This document shows positions 21,463-28,913 of a stretch of DNA of 64,000 nucleotides, in pieces (position 1 is the stretch's first letter; every line of letters begins with the position of its first letter). Location of the stretch: the NCBI RefSeq assembly GCF_019263745.1, contig NZ_CP077107.1, positions 1,178,001 through 1,242,000 of the forward strand, read 5' to 3'. A model generated the notes under the pieces. It was given only the letters and a program-made list of their open reading frames with translations, had not been told where the DNA came from and did no database searches. Both the position numbers and the translations under genes were made by a program. The stretch is from Methanospirillum hungatei. Lineage in GTDB: Archaea > Halobacteriota > Methanomicrobia > Methanomicrobiales > Methanospirillaceae.

Positions 21463-21482
21463 CCGGATCCAGTATCGCTCTT

Positions 21483-21512
21483 TGTCGATTGAAACTTCGT
21501 TAATTATATAAC
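21483..21512 (+). promoter_or_regulatory. Promoter of the HTH-HMGS operon, shared with the downstream RNA
   Basis: The element TGTCGAT, eight other bases, then CGTTAATTATATAAC. The ATTATATA core is a TATA box placed about 27 nt before the ATG at 21537, so the mRNA is nearly leaderless. The same element at identical spacing occurs at 24925-24954 after the operon. TGTCGAT is a candidate activator or repressor half-site. Confidence 0.6.
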
Positions 21513-21536: not shown

Positions 21537-22247
21537 ATGGAATCGGGACTTCGTCATCGACTCGCGGAGAAGATGGCGGGGGAGATAACACTATCTGATT
21601 CTCCGGGAAAAACCCTGAAAAAATGGCGTCTTAGTTTTGACATCTCTCAGGGACAGCTCTCCGAGTACCTTGGTGTATCGCCATCAGTCATTAGCGACTA
21701 TGAAAGCGGAAGGAGAAAGAGTCCGGGCACTGCAATCATCGGACGAATTGTTGACAGTATTCTTGCCATTGATGAAGCGAAAGGCGGGAAGTATATTCAT
21801 AAGTATGCATCCCTGCTCTTTGCCGAGATGGGGGACGGAGTAATATATGATCTTCATGATTACAAAAGCCCCATCGATCTTGCAACATTTGCCGGTGCTA
21901 TAAGTGCAGATGTCATTACCGGTCCGACACATCTCAGTATTTACGGATATACGGTAATTGACAGTCTCCGGGCAATTATGAACCTTACTGCAAGCGAATT
22001 TAACCGTATATATGGTTGGAGCACTGAGCGGGCGCTAATTTTTACCGGAGTCTCGAATGGAAAATCACCGATGGTGGCTATCCGTGTTACTCCTTTCAAG
22101 CCCCGGTGCGTAGTACTTCATGGCATATCACTCGATAATGTTCATCCGATTGTGCCAAAAATGGCTGAAAAAGATAACATCACCCTGATGTGTACTACAC
22201 AGGGAATCGAAGATATCGTGGAGAGATTGAGGGAAGAAAAATGGTAG
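21537..22247 (+). CDS. HTH transcriptional regulator of the mevalonate operon (inferred)
   Basis: 236 residues. The N-terminal XRE-type HTH (about residues 20-75) reads [35 protein letters not shown]. The rest (about 85-236) is an archaeal C-terminal domain of unknown ligand. The gene overlaps the HMG-CoA synthase start by 7 nt (ATGGTAG), so they are translationally coupled. This linkage is known in archaea, and control of isoprenoid synthesis is a reasonable inference. It may bind the TGTCGAT element before its own gene. Confidence 0.82.
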
Positions 22248-23293
22248 GAATCATCTCGTACGGTGCTTATATTCCACGGTACCGTATCAAAGTAGAAGAG
22301 ATTGCCCGTGTCTGGGGTGCGAACGGCACAGAAATCTCCCGGGGACTGGGCGTCTATGAAAAGGCACTGCCTGATATGGATGAAGATACAATCACGATCT
22401 CTGTAGAAGCTACTCGTGCTGCAATGGCACGAAGACCAGTCAATCCTGCAGATATCGGAGCAGTTTACGTCGGGTCAGAGTCTCATCCATACGCGGTGAA
22501 ACCTACTGCAGTTACCGTTGGTGAAGCAATTGGAGCAACCCCGGTTATGACTGCAGCAGATTATGAATTTGCCTGTAAAGCAGGAACTGCTGCTATTCAG
22601 ACCTCAATGGGTCTTGTGAAATCAGATATGGTGAAGTATTCAATAGCAGTCGGTGCAGATGTTGCCCAGGGTGAGCCTGGTGATGCACTTGAATATACTG
22701 CAGCAGCCGGTGGAGCGGCCATGATCATCGGAAATGATGACCCGATAGCCGAGATAAACCATACCTGTTCTTTCACAACTGATACTCCCGACTTCTGGAG
22801 ACGTGAAAATAAGCCTTATCCTCGTCATGGAGGAAGATTTACTGGTGAACCTGCATATTTTAAGCATGTAATCGGTGCATCAAAGATGATGCTGGAAAAG
22901 ATGGGAACAAAACCATCTGACTATACCTATGCAGTGTTTCACCAGCCAAACGGTAAATTCCCGGTTCAGGCTGCAAATATGCTTGGATTCACCATGGACC
23001 AAATTAAACCCGGACTTGCCGTTACATATCTAGGAAATACCTATTCCGGTGCATCAATGGTCGGACTCTCAGCAGTCCTTGATATTGCAAAACCAGGTGA
23101 CCGGATCTTTATGACCAGTTATGGTTCTGGATCCGGAAGTGATTCATTTGACTTAACCGTCACTGATGTTATCAATTCAGATCTCTTCAACCGTGACGCA
23201 GCCCCGACCGTGTCTGCCCTCCTTGCAGACAAGAAGATCGTGGATTATGCAGTCTATGCAAAACACAAAGGCAAAGTGGTGATGATGGAATGA
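22241..23293 (+). CDS. Hydroxymethylglutaryl-CoA synthase (archaeal type)
   Basis: 350 residues starting [16 protein letters not shown], with GAGGGA before the ATG. The acyl-accepting Cys112 lies in [12 protein letters not shown], and the catalytic His sits in [10 protein letters not shown]. It condenses acetoacetyl-CoA with acetyl-CoA to HMG-CoA, the entry to the mevalonate pathway for archaeal ether lipids. It overlaps the thiolase start by 4 nt (ATGA). In related methanogens this enzyme works as a complex with the two following gene products. Confidence 0.95.
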
Positions 23294-24453
23294 GAGAAGT
23301 TGCAGTAATCGGTGTAGGCTGTACAAAATTCGGAGAGAAGTGGGAAACCTCGTTTAGAAACCTTTTCGTTGAAGCAGGTGCCCTGGCTCTTGAAGATGCA
23401 AACATCTCCGGCGAACATATCGACGAGATATTTGTCGGAAACATGAGTGCAGGCCGATTTGTTGAACAGGAACACATTGGTGCCCTAATTGCAGATTATG
23501 CCGGACTTGCAACAATTAATGTTCCGGCAACCCGTGTAGAAGCTGCCTGTGCATCCGGAGGACTCTCTTTCAGACAGGCATATACTGCTGTAGCTTCCGG
23601 GATGTCAGATATTGTCGTTGCAGCCGGTGTTGAAAAGATGACCGATGTTGGCACTGATGTTACCACCGATGTGCTCGCAGCTGCTGCTGACAGAGAATGG
23701 GAAGGTATTGCAGGTATCACGTTCCCAGGTCTGTATGCAATGATTGCAACTCAATACATGCACCGGTATGGTCTGACCCGGGAACAACTTGCTCAGGTTG
23801 CAGTCAAAAACCATGACAACGGAGCAAAAAATCCAAATGCACAGTTTAGGAAACCGATCACTCTTGACACTGTCTTAAACTCAACCCTTGTTGCAGATCC
23901 ACTCCGCCTGTTTGACTGCTCACCGGTGACTGACGGAGCAGCAGCAGTAATTCTTGCCCCACTTGAACGGGCACGGGAGTTTACCGATACCCCAATTAAA
24001 GTCCTTGGAGCAGGTCAGGCATCCAGTACGATTGCTCTTCATGACAGAAAGGACATCTGTACTTTGGATGCAACAGTTGCCGCAGGAAACCGGGCATTCC
24101 AGATGGCCGGAGTTGAACGGAAGGATATCGGATTTGTAGAAGTGCATGACTGTTTTACCATCGCAGAGATCTGTGCAATTGAAGATCTTGGATTCTGCAA
24201 GAAAGGTGAAGCAGGAAAATTAACCGAAGAAGGCCAGACAGCAATCGGTGGTAAGATTCCAGTCAACCCAAGTGGCGGTCTGAAGGCTTGTGGTCATCCA
24301 GTTGGAGCAACTGGGGTGAAACAAGTTTATGAGACAGTAAAGCAACTTCGTGGCGATGCAAAAGGAAGGCAGATCGATACTGAAATCGGAATGACACACA
24401 ACGTTGGAGGAACCGGAGCCACAGTCGTTTGTCATATTTTCGGGAGGGTATAA
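23290..24453 (+). CDS. Acetyl-CoA C-acetyltransferase (thiolase), archaeal
   Basis: 387 residues. Nucleophile Cys87 is in [11 protein letters not shown], and the C-terminal active-site motifs [26 protein letters not shown] and MTHNVGGTG are present. It makes acetoacetyl-CoA for HMG-CoA synthase. In methanogens the archaeal thiolase and HMGS are bridged by the DUF35 protein, which lets acetoacetyl-CoA pass between sites. The gene order here (HMGS, thiolase, DUF35) matches that complex. Confidence 0.94.
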
Positions 24454-24454
24454 G

Positions 24455-24844
24455 ATGTCGGTTGCACGATTCTGGAGAAAACAACAGAACCGGTATAATC
24501 TGATTGGAACACATTGTACCACATGTGGTAAATATTTCTATCCACCCCGTGGTTTTTGTCCAGAATGCCGGAGAGAAGGAAAGATTGTTGAGCACCAGTT
24601 CAAAGGGGTCGGCAAGGTCGTTACCTATTCCATCATCCGGAGTTCGTCAGGTAACTTTAAGCTTCTGACTCCCTATGTTCTTGCCATCATTGAACTGGAA
24701 GAAGGGTCTCGTCTTACGACACACCTGGTCTGTGATATTGACAAGGTTCATATCGGGATGCCGGTGAAACGGGTGTTTAGAAAACTGGGAGAAGACGGAT
24801 CCAGCGGCGCAATCTTCTATGGGACAAAATTTGTCCCGGCTTAA
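24455..24844 (+). CDS. DUF35 OB-fold/zinc-ribbon protein of the thiolase-HMGS complex
   Basis: 129 residues starting MSVARFWRKQQNRYNLIG. The zinc ribbon is HCTTCGKYFYPPRGFCPEC, followed by an OB-fold. GGGAGG at the end of the thiolase gene serves the ATG at 24455. It forms the scaffold that shares the CoA-binding site between thiolase and HMG-CoA synthase. It is the last gene of the operon. Confidence 0.93.
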   Translation: MSVARFWRKQQNRYNLIGTHCTTCGKYFYPPRGFCPECRREGKIVEHQFKGVGKVVTYSIIRSSSGNFKLLTPYVLAIIELEEGSRLTTHLVCDIDKVHIGMPVKRVFRKLGEDGSSGAIFYGTKFVPA

Positions 24845-24924
24845 TCTTTTTAACCTCTTTTTGGCTTTTTTTAATTTATTAATCCACGTTATCCACACAT
24901 GACTATATAGGCACGTTCGGGATA

Positions 24925-24954
24925 TGTCGATGCAATATACGTTAATTATATAAC
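24925..24954 (+). promoter_or_regulatory. Promoter repeat in front of the structured RNA
   Basis: TGTCGAT, eight bases, then CGTTAATTATATAAC. This is a 15-base perfect match plus the TGTCGAT box to the promoter at 21483-21512, at the same spacing. The TATA core predicts a transcript start near 24975-24980, just before the first hairpin of the RNA candidate. Confidence 0.6.
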
Positions 24955-24977
24955 TGCCTGTGTATTACTATTACTTA

Positions 24978-25098
24978 TCACACCGCCATCCCCCGGGTGG
25001 CAGGAGAATATCCGGATTAGTTACCGGATACACAACTCCGAACAAAGCGTTCATTATCGCTTTCCTCCTCCTGGACCGGGATTTTCCCGGTTTTCATT
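24978..25098 (+). ncRNA. Candidate structured small RNA
   Basis: No ORF is present. Four hairpins are arranged in order. H1 is 24985-25001 (7 bp, CCC loop). An outer stem joins CAGGAG at 25001-25006 to CTCCTG at 25068-25073. Inside it are H2 (TATCCGG with CCGGATA, 25009-25030) and H3 (AAAGCG with CGCTTT, 25044-25063), each with an 8-base loop. H4 is ACCGGGA with TCCCGGT (25075-25091), followed by T-rich sequence that may be a terminator. A dedicated TATA box lies about 27 nt upstream. It does not match any archaeal RNA family I know. The 3' end is approximate, and a regulatory leader is less likely because malic enzyme has its own TATA box. Confidence 0.55.
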
Positions 25099-25148
25099 CT
25101 ACATAACTTCAATTCTGCTTGGGTTTGGTGTTTCCTAAATTAAAATGA

Positions 25149-25198: not shown

Positions 25199-26407
25199 AT
25201 GGATATTGATAGAGAGGAGATCGCACATAAATCACTTACACTCCACCTGGAAAACCGGGGAAAATTATCTGTTCAGTCAAAAGTTCCGGTAAAGACCAGG
25301 GAAGATCTCTCGCTGGCATATACGCCCGGAGTTGCTCATGTCTGCAAATATATCGCTGAAGATGAAAAAAGGACTTTTTCATGCACCTTAAAACACAATA
25401 CCATCGCAATTATTACTGACGGAACTGCAGTTCTGGGTCTTGGTAATATCGGTCCTGCTGCAGCGATTCCAGTCATGGAAGGAAAAGCCATCCTCTTTAA
25501 AGAGTTTGCAGGGATAGATGCTTTTCCAATCTGTATTACTGGAGATCATGACGATCTCATCAGCCATATCAGAAGTATAGCTCCAGTTTTTGGAGGAATT
25601 AATCTTGAAGATATCGCGGCTCCTCGTTGTTTTGAAATTGAAGAAGAACTGCAGGATCTTGGTATTCCAGTGATGCATGATGATCAGCATGGTGCTGCAA
25701 TTGCTGTTCTAGCAGCCCTCATCAATGCTTGTCGGGTGACTGGAAAACGGTTCAAAGATCTTACGGTTGTCGTTTCAGGAGCTGGAGCTGCAGGATATGC
25801 TATTTGTAGGCTGCTCAAATGTATCGGGTATGAAGGAGAAGAATGCCATGCTGTAAAGGAACTAATCGTCTGCGACAGAACGGGAATAATTTACCGGGGA
25901 AGACCCGGGCTCTATCATAATATCTACAAATATCTTCTTGGTGATGAGACAAACAAGATGCTTCGGAAAGGAACTCTTGCAGATGCATTAGAGAATGCCG
26001 ATGTTTTTGTCGGTGTATCAAGTGGCAACCTGGTAACAGCAGACATGGTCAGGACGATGAATAAAGATCCGATTGTACTTGCCCTTGCAAACCCGACTCC
26101 GGAGATCATGCCAAATGTAGCAAAATCAGGGGGTGCTGCAATTGTCGGCACCGGACGATCAGACTTCCCAAACCAGGTGAATAATGTGCTTGTGTTTCCT
26201 GGAGTATTTCGGGGAGCTCTTGATGCAGGTGCAACGAAGATCAACGAGGAGATGAAGATCGCTGCAGCACATGCCATTGCAGAGTATGTAAAGGATCCGA
26301 CTCCGGACCAGATTCTTCCAGACCCATTAGATCGGGGGGTTGCACGGGCTGTTGCTGCAGCTGTTGCAGAGATGGCGAGGAGATGTAAGTGTGTGAGAAA
26401 GGAGTGA
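25199..26407 (+). CDS. NAD(P)-dependent malic enzyme
   Basis: 402 residues, the short prokaryotic form. [18 protein letters not shown] carries the catalytic Tyr. [25 protein letters not shown], the metal-site segment [14 protein letters not shown], and the NAD loop [12 protein letters not shown] are present. It interconverts malate and pyruvate plus CO2. With ppcA it controls the C3-C4 node. Its 3' end is the repeated boundary of the accessory island: two degenerate copies of its C-terminal coding region follow downstream. Confidence 0.93.
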
Positions 26408-26820
26408 ATGATCTGTCACAAAACTACCCATTCCATCATCACCAGAATCGTTCATGAGAAAGTTGTTGGAGTGACTGGAGAGAAAAAAGCACGATCGGAG
26501 AATGACTGGAGAAAATTTTCCACCTATGGATTTTTCATCCATTTGATGAATAAAGCCCCATAAGCCATCTAATGTCATATTTTTTGTTGATCGGAGAAAA
26601 CCTAGCGGAGTAGAGAGAGAATGAAGCTGATTCATTTATACTCTCTGTACCCGGGTTTTTTCTCCAGTCATAATAAAAACTAATTATTATTGTATTAATT
26701 TTAGATTATTCAATAATTTGAGACCCTTTGACCGGAGAAAAATTTTCTCCAATAGCCCGCTGGTATTCTCCAGTCTCTCCGGAAATTATTATTCATTAAC
26801 CTCTTCTCTGCGATACCAAA
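26196..26820. repeat. Long direct repeat, copy 1 (malic enzyme tail plus noncoding block)
   Basis: About 625 bp closely related to 28301-28913 at an offset of about 2.1 kb. The first about 210 bp are the functional 3' end of malic enzyme. The rest (26408-26820) is noncoding and holds many GGAGAAA/TTTCTCC motifs, a hairpin TTCATC/GATGAA at 26534-26550 and a 17-base palindrome at 26734-26750. The stretch 26821-27024 before the ATPase gene shows nothing but A/T-rich promoter-like sequence. Confidence 0.8.
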
Positions 26821-27024: not shown

Positions 27025-28269
27025 ATGATCGCCTATCATATCCTAAAAGAAGTCATTGGAGATCAACATCTGCGGTTTCATAATCAGGAACCTGGCATAC
27101 CCCGGAGAATTGATCCTGAACAGTACCGGAGCAGAAACAGAATTGTAATCATATCCGGAGTTCGCAGATCCGGGAAATCCACCTTCTTAAAACAATTAGC
27201 ACTTGGATTCCCATCTTTCTTATACCTGAATGCTGATGATGACCGGCTAATCGGAGCCACCACTGATGACTTAGGATCTCTCCTCCTCATCTGGGAGGAA
27301 TTATTTCCCGGAGTAAGAACGGCATTTTTAGATGAAATCCAGAATATTCCCGGATGGGAACGTGTTGTTCGAAGAATGCATGATGAAGGATACCGGATTT
27401 TTCTGACCGGATCAAATGCACAGATGCTGAGTAAAGAACTGGGAACCCATCTGACCGGGAGATATGTACGAGTTGAATTATACCCCTTCGGATTTGATGA
27501 ATATTGTACCTTTTATCAATTTACCTGGAAAACAACCGGCATCCATACTACCGTTGAATCTGCTGCTGCTCTCCGGCTTTTCTCTCAGTTCATTGAAGAC
27601 GGGGGATTTCCTGAATTTCTCAAGGATCCTGACCCGGAAATATTACGGAGAACCTTTGATGACATTCTGTTTCGTGATATCATCGCCAGATATGCCATTC
27701 GTGAAGTTAAGGCATTTCGGTTGTTATGCAGATACCTGTATACGAATATGACAAGAGAAGCAAGTCTTACATCGCTGGCTTCAATTGTCCAGATGAAAAG
27801 CCCGGTTTCCCTTAAAAACTGGATTGGATATCTTGAAGATAATTATCTTATCGGAAGTCTTTCACCTTTTGAATACTCTATGAAGAAACAACTCTCACGA
27901 AACCAAAAATATTATGGGATTGATACTGCTCTTCGTAACGCTGTAGCCTTCAGATTTTCAGACGACTATGGCCTTCTCCTTGAAAACATCGTGTGGCTGG
28001 AACTCTGCAGAAGAGGATATGAATTATACTGGCTTAAAGGACAATCCGAATGTGATTTTATCGTAGTTGAGCAAGGAAAAGTGAGTATGGCGATTCAGGT
28101 TTGCTGGCACCTGTCTGATGAAAATCGCAAACGGGAGTATGATGGAGTTATTGAGGCATGTACTATGTTCCCTGGTTCGGGAGGATATATATTAACATTA
28201 CAACAGGAAGAACAGCCAGCTCAAAATATCAGGGTAATGCCGGTCTGGAAGTGGATACTAGAAGAGTGA
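27025..28269 (+). CDS. AAA_14/DUF4143-type ATPase
   Basis: 414 residues. Walker A is SGVRRSGKSTFL, Walker B is TAFLDEIQNIPGWE, and the sensor LTGSNAQML follows. The C-terminal part (about 200-400) contains the DUF4143 nuclease-like core, with ENIVWLELCRRGYELYWLKG and ECDFIVVEQGK, where Glu, Asp and a following Lys-like position resemble a PD-(D/E)xK site. Such ATPases are abundant in methanogens and scattered by transfer. It lies exactly between the two long direct repeats, so it arrived with, or caused, the duplication. Cellular function unknown. Confidence 0.8.
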   Translation: MIAYHILKEVIGDQHLRFHNQEPGIPRRIDPEQYRSRNRIVIISGVRRSGKSTFLKQLALGFPSFLYLNADDDRLIGATTDDLGSLLLIWEELFPGVRTAFLDEIQNIPGWERVVRRMHDEGYRIFLTGSNAQMLSKELGTHLTGRYVRVELYPFGFDEYCTFYQFTWKTTGIHTTVESAAALRLFSQFIEDGGFPEFLKDPDPEILRRTFDDILFRDIIARYAIREVKAFRLLCRYLYTNMTREASLTSLASIVQMKSPVSLKNWIGYLEDNYLIGSLSPFEYSMKKQLSRNQKYYGIDTALRNAVAFRFSDDYGLLLENIVWLELCRRGYELYWLKGQSECDFIVVEQGKVSMAIQVCWHLSDENRKREYDGVIEACTMFPGSGGYILTLQQEEQPAQNIRVMPVWKWILEE

Positions 28270-28300: not shown

Positions 28301-28509
28301 TTCCAGGTGCACTCCGGGGAGCTCTTGATGCAGGTGTAACGAATATCAACAAGGAGATGAAGATCGCAGCTGCTCATTGTATTGCTTGGTAATTGAAAAT
28401 CCAACCCCAAAAAAATTCTTTCGGATCCCCTGGACCTGGGGGTGGCTCAGGCAGTGGCAACAGCGGTTGCAGAGATGGCGAAAAATGTGGGTGTGTGAGA
28501 GGGAAGTGA
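28301..28509 (+). pseudogene. Degenerate copy of the malic enzyme 3' end
   Basis: GGGGAGCTCTTGATGCAGGT at 28316 is identical to the malic enzyme gene at 26211. The match continues through the AACGA-ATCAAC-GGAGATGAAGATCGC stretch, with a stop after HCIAW and frameshifts beyond. The end (TGTGAGAGGGAAGTGA) corresponds to the true gene terminus. No start codon and no conserved frame remain. Confidence 0.75.
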
Positions 28510-28913
28510 ATAGTCAGATACTCAATACCCCCTTTTTATTATCACCAGTATCCCTCATGAGTAGGTCATGTGATTGACTGGAGAAAAAAATGACCGATCG
28601 GAGAATGACTGGAGAAAATTTTTCCCCGGAGGATTTTTCATCCATTTGATGAATAAAGCCCAATACAATCATTAAAGTGAGATTTTTTAGGGACCGGAGA
28701 AAACCAACCGAAGTAGAGAGAAGATGAAGCTGGATCATTTACACACTCTGCACCCGGATTTTTTCTCCAGTCATAATAAAAACTTATTATTATTGTGTTA
28801 ATTTCATATTACTCAATAATTTGAGAGCCTTTGACCGGAGAAAAAATTTCTCCGATCGCCTGTTGGAATTCTCCAGTCTCTCCGGAAATTATTATTAGTT
28901 AACCTCTTTTCTG
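28301..28913. repeat. Long direct repeat, copy 2
   Basis: Degenerate second copy of 26196-26820. The malic-enzyme part (28301-28509) is broken, while the noncoding part keeps the hairpin TTCATC/GATGAA (28637-28653), the CGGAGAAA/TTTCTCCG palindrome (28836-28854) and the CTCCAGTCTCTCCGG stretch near the end. Retention of these elements while the coding part decays suggests selection on, or recent origin of, the noncoding block. Confidence 0.78.

Follow-up and report, generated by a model that had tools for sequence, protein, structure and literature searches.

A predicted small RNA of Methanospirillum that shares a promoter box with the mevalonate operon

Introduction

One of the closest described systems is sRNA154 of Methanosarcina mazei: its promoter contains a possible operator (GGTA-N6-TACC) for NrpRI, a regulator of metabolic genes (PMC3177094). 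sRNA154 is stem-looped and conserved in one genus, and its targets are known (PMC5867862). In Haloferax volcanii, the genus-specific intergenic sRNA132 has its own basal promoter and was added to an older, conserved regulon (PMC6560208). Another M. mazei RNA, sRNA162, occurs in close relatives only, combines stem-loops with a single-stranded pairing segment and acts in trans by covering a ribosome binding site (PMC3510493).

Here we analysed a predicted small RNA that lies after the mevalonate operon of Methanospirillum hungatei, in a stretch of 64,000 nucleotides (the window; NZ_CP077107.1, positions 1,178,001 to 1,242,000). As with sRNA154 and NrpR, the promoter of a methanogen small RNA carries an operator-like box linked to a metabolic regulator. 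Unlike sRNA154, with its known targets and its place in nitrogen regulation, this RNA is linked to mevalonate, and its operator, sequence and fold are different. It resembles sRNA132 in being a genus-specific RNA that seems to have joined an older regulon, but the regulon of sRNA132 is that of phosphate starvation, and its place in that regulon does not depend on an operator that the regulator's own operon has too; by the evidence of Rfam and our covariance model, the two sequences are unrelated. The RNA has stem-loops and a single-stranded segment like sRNA162 and is likewise found only in close relatives. The pairing segment of sRNA162 is an internal, variable linker, whereas here a conserved single strand stands at the 5' end as a candidate pairing region. 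We searched the literature, mostly open-access papers, for Methanospirillum small RNAs, COG1709 and archaeal mevalonate regulation and found nothing on the RNA or the box; the open-access literature held no regulon paper for the archaeal mevalonate pathway.

Results

Fold of the predicted RNA

The minimum free energy fold of positions 24970-25110 reached -45.2 kcal/mol, compared with -28.4 +/- 3.6 kcal/mol for dinucleotide shuffles (z -4.63), and none of 200 shuffles was as good. The predicted small RNA (24970-25096, plus strand) would be about 125 nt long; we infer that it starts at about 24970-24976, near UAUUACUUAUCACACC, and stops close to the TTTTC that follows the last hairpin. It begins with a conserved single-stranded segment, ATTACTTATCACACC (24970-24984), a candidate pairing region in which ATCACAC is invariant in all 14 copies of the RNA described below; across these copies the 5' segment AUCACACCG is the best-conserved part. 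Hairpin 1 follows (24985-25001, 7 bp, 3-nt loop). A closing stem of 5 bp, AGGAG/CTCCT, pairs 25002-25006 with 25068-25072, and within this part (25002-25072) it encloses hairpin 2 (25009-25030, 7 bp) and hairpin 3 (25040-25067, 6-bp core), each with an 8-nt loop. The GC-rich terminal hairpin (25073-25093, with the T-run to 25094) runs into TTTTC and looks like a terminator. The reverse strand of the region also folds well (z -3.16) because the stems are inverted repeats, so the strand of the RNA was decided by the position of the promoter.

We found no open reading frame of at least 60 aa over the RNA on either strand, and ARAGORN detected no tRNA or tmRNA in the window. Rfam 15 at gathering thresholds gave no match in the whole window, and the RNA matches no Rfam family; with lax thresholds the RNA region returned nothing beyond two miRNA matches that we ascribe to chance (13.9 and 13.6 bits). 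The RNA is outside every described family open to testing. These results agree with a preliminary description made from the sequence alone, which had claimed hairpins and a closing stem around two hairpins with 8-base loops, a terminator-like end, no open reading frame and no resemblance to a recognised family: every stem folded at the place given for it, and the other three claims held as well.

A promoter box in common with the mevalonate operon

The operon upstream of the RNA starts with an HTH_3 regulator gene (21537-22247; PF01381), followed by an archaeal-type HMG-CoA synthase (22238-23293; TIGR00748, 563 bits), an acetyl-CoA acetyltransferase (thiolase; 23290-24453; NF053570, 617 bits) and an OB-fold/zinc-ribbon partner protein (ChsH2-like; 24455-24844; PF01796 and PF12172), all on the plus strand. 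By whole-genome pattern search and comparison of instances we found an operator-like box of 35 bp, TTCGTGAAATGTCGA-N8-TCGTTAATTATATA. On the plus strand it is present both in the operon promoter (21474-21508) and in the promoter of the RNA (24916-24950, TTCGGGATATGTCGATGCAATATACGTTAATTATA).

The RNA promoter contains a TATA element, TTATATA (24946-24952, plus strand). Since archaeal TATA elements are centred at about -26/27 from the start (PMC8553660), the RNA would start at about 24970-24976. The conserved RNA sequence begins some 20-25 bases after the TATA element, in keeping with such a start. The TATA box claimed in the preliminary description is present, but the start given there, 24978, is a few bases late. 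The paired half-sites of the box stand ahead of the TATA element, the last of them extending to the BRE position, an arrangement with which the HTH protein might either repress or activate.

The box, or a near form of it, precedes every copy of the RNA; the boxes of two copies are too diverged for the search expression. Within the genus, box sites were found only at the operon, before the HTH gene, and at RNA copies. At up to three mismatches there are two or three boxes per RNA-carrying genome, and no genome of the genus has more than three; the reversed box pattern, used as a control, gave none in these genomes. Across the order the box occurs in 106 of 150 genomes, nearly always once and usually before the HTH gene. 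At the loci examined we counted 62 distinct instances, of which 49 precede the HTH gene and 12 the RNA; the remaining one is at another place. This order-wide linkage of box and gene suggests that the HTH protein is the probable binder of the box. The promoter of the RNA thus carries the box found before the gene of the mevalonate HTH regulator, the feature that would mark its regulon. Because the box is rare, usually once per genome before the HTH gene across the order with the extra sites before the RNA, the RNA very probably belongs to the HTH regulon, and it is likely that the RNA and the mevalonate operon are co-regulated.

Copies of the RNA in related genomes

The covariance model matched the RNA itself (24960-25098) with 103.5 bits, this copy being part of its training set. 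Searching 232 genomes of the order Methanomicrobiales with the model, we found 14 copies, spread over nine of the 12 Methanospirillum genomes; the 220 other genomes had none. All 14 matches were in the training set and no others appeared at E up to 0.1, so distant relatives of the RNA may have been missed. A DNA search in 100 relatives also found copies only within the genus. The positive genomes include all seven Methanospirillum genomes that are at least 90% complete, and the three negative ones are 64-84% complete. One of these three, G005, has the syntenic site with operon and box, and the RNA is absent there. Its intergenic stretch after the operon (L156:6200-6900) is longer and unlike that of its relatives, which suggests that the RNA was lost together with an insertion.

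We also scanned 84,980 species, each represented by one genome, for exact patterns, and this returned 54 stretches. The covariance model confirmed those in Methanospirillum; it did not confirm those in one Poseidoniales contig and three viral contigs, and copies in viral contigs were rejected. The remaining stretches, in scattered bacteria, have no model scores. In the window's own genome (G000, a single contig of 3,393,136 bases) there was also a weak model match at G000:C1:310281-310427 (17.7 bits, E 0.475), which overlaps an open reading frame on the other strand and is probably due to chance.

In all nine positive genomes a copy stands directly after the HTH–HMG-CoA-synthase–thiolase–OB operon, and five genomes have a second copy elsewhere. 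The alignments reveal one family with two flavours. The copies after the operon are A-type in G000, G002, G008, G009 and G010 and B-type in G001, G003, G004 and G007; those at the second place (G000, G003, G007, G009 and G010) are B-type. G002 has one copy, on the minus strand at C1:169361-169504. The second copies are at unrelated loci, where the box and the RNA are kept and the neighbours are not. Those of G003 and G007 (L151:3957-4095 and L152:4078-4216) have a locus in common, with a zinc-ribbon protein, an ACT-like protein and a 454-aa protein, and those of G000, G009 and G010 are in unrelated places. The differing loci imply that the RNA moved or was duplicated more than once.

The surroundings of the copies bear on whether the RNA could be a 5' leader element, an attenuator or riboswitch acting in cis on malic enzyme. 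About 105 bases separate the terminal hairpin from the start of the malic enzyme gene (25199-26407), which lies on the same strand and is also the next gene downstream in G009 and G010. We consider this role unlikely because the next gene codes for a different protein in G002, G003, G007 and G008 and because the second copies have unrelated genes after or beside them. Nor is the spacing to the following gene constant, and the RNA here has a terminator-like end. The window contains two copies of the 3' portion of the malic enzyme gene, together with the bases that follow it (26196-26810 and 28301-28913; 73-86% identical, about 2.1 kb apart), and between the repeats lies an open reading frame of 414 aa (27025-28269) with an ATPase-like look.

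The constant position after the operon would also suit a structured 3' UTR, or a processed end cleaved off the mevalonate operon mRNA. This is very improbable: the RNA is preceded by a TATA element and a box of its own, and in five genomes a copy with the same box stands a long way from the operon. We give equally little credence to the idea that the box was merely duplicated with the operon promoter and that the RNA is noise or a titrating decoy site with no function of its own. The box and the TATA element are indeed the same as those of the operon, but the RNA body is unlike the operon's 5' end beyond the promoter and is nevertheless conserved in sequence and structure in the genus. An origin of the RNA body from the 5' end of the operon was rejected, as no consistent similarity was found beyond the promoter.

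Conservation of the structure

Hairpin 1 is well supported in the alignment of the 14 copies: 95.8% of its cells pair, compared with 20-49% in slid controls, and double-sided changes occur at three of the seven pairs, one of which is divided 7:7 between C-G and U-A. Its loop varies from 1 to 6 bases. The covariation score of hairpin 1 was reached by one of 500 shuffles, and since relatedness of the copies inflates such shuffle tests, we regard the covariation evidence as good, not overwhelming. A terminal hairpin is found in each of the 14 copies, built from different bases. The relatives lend good support to these two elements.

The closing stem is a plausible part of the modelled fold. A middle hairpin is found in most copies with no sequence common to them, and neither it nor the closing stem has clear covariation among the 14 copies. 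The inner arrangement differs between copies, and the A-type GGAG can also pair with a second CUCC. Since the middle of the RNA does not align, RNAalifold on the whole alignment recovered no more than hairpin 1 and a portion of the terminal hairpin. The fold of the whole RNA has a negative z in every copy (-1.3 to -5.3). B-type copies (e.g. L021:3540-3683 and L023:3499-3642) have AUUUCAG before and UCAACAC after the terminal hairpin and no U-run, which makes the 3' end uncertain.

Covariation in relatives, named earlier as a check of the stems, was thus found for hairpin 1 and not clearly for the closing stem or the middle hairpin, the terminal hairpin being kept with changed bases. Support for the broader claim of a new structured small RNA comes from its conservation in relatives, the covariation of hairpin 1, the paralogous copies at unrelated loci and the dedicated promoter box that they have in common. 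The proposed location after the mevalonate operon is true in nine genomes and is reinforced by the operon's operator-like box in the RNA promoter.

The letters conserved in hairpin 1 include an ATG or GTG followed by RCAGGAG in all 14 copies, with frames that begin M/V-A/T-G-E or similar, but a short mRNA for a small protein starting there is scarcely credible and a small conserved protein was rejected, as the frames run from 6 to 91 codons with no common sequence after about seven residues, five use GTG, no Shine-Dalgarno sequence stands ahead and the hairpin pairing accounts for the letters in common. With a leader and a small protein both unlikely, a standalone regulatory RNA is left.

Searches for targets

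Exact complements of the 5' segment in the 12 genomes lie mostly inside coding regions, and no start-region target was common between genomes; complement sites recur because the proteins are conserved. Against a background of about -7.1 +/- 3.0 kcal/mol, pairing of the 5' segment was unremarkable: it gave -5.9 to -11.2 kcal/mol for the start regions of HMG-CoA reductase, and the values for the operon leader were -5.1 to -7.6 kcal/mol.

Discussion

We are highly confident that a conserved structured RNA exists at this locus. Like RNAs of the sRNA154 and sRNA162 type, it is intergenic and non-coding, has a predicted promoter of its own and keeps its structure in hairpin 1 and the terminal hairpin. 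Our main reading, to which we assign a probability of roughly 0.65, is that it is a standalone, Methanospirillum-specific small RNA, predicted to be transcribed from its own promoter as a member of the mevalonate HTH regulator's regulon, and acting in trans. It is a new lineage-specific family of archaeal small RNAs with a known style of wiring (cf. NrpR–sRNA154).

In this mechanism, a structured non-coding RNA of about 125 nt would be transcribed from a promoter with the mevalonate operon's box. The HTH protein would control its own operon through the box and hence probably the RNA too, so that one signal would act on both operon and RNA; isoprenoid or acetyl-CoA status is a possible one. Antisense base-pairing in trans is the likeliest mode of action of the RNA and is reasonably probable. 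The natural candidates for pairing are the 5' end AUCACACCG and the CCUCC strand, the latter of which we take to resemble the anti-Shine-Dalgarno 3' end of 16S rRNA. Either or both may pair with mRNAs and change their translation or stability, and such pairing would extend the regulon to genes that carry no box.

A stretch in a sister genus of the same family deserves mention. Genome G017 has an orphan box that is not before the HTH gene (L147:3016-3200; G017:C92:49315 onward), and the sequence after it folds strongly (z -4.26). This sequence contains a long hairpin as well as ATCCTCCT and a hairpin whose end is a run of seven T. At 2.8 bits it is not recognised by the covariance model, and it was found in no relative. 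Possibly it is a counterpart of the RNA that has diverged or arose independently.

More tentatively, the mevalonate (membrane-lipid) pathway of archaea could have here its first small RNA, genus-specific and sometimes present in two copies. It would have joined an ancient one-operon regulon by gaining the operator, have a diverged or independent counterpart in the sister genus and control mRNAs of lipid or carbon metabolism in trans.

Little is known about how the mevalonate pathway is regulated for archaeal membrane lipids, and here we propose a candidate regulator together with a box that is present in most Methanomicrobiales. If our reading is true, one genus has added an RNA layer over this mevalonate regulon. 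It looks like a clear case of a young small RNA joining an old regulon through a common operator, and the paralogous copies make its evolution traceable.
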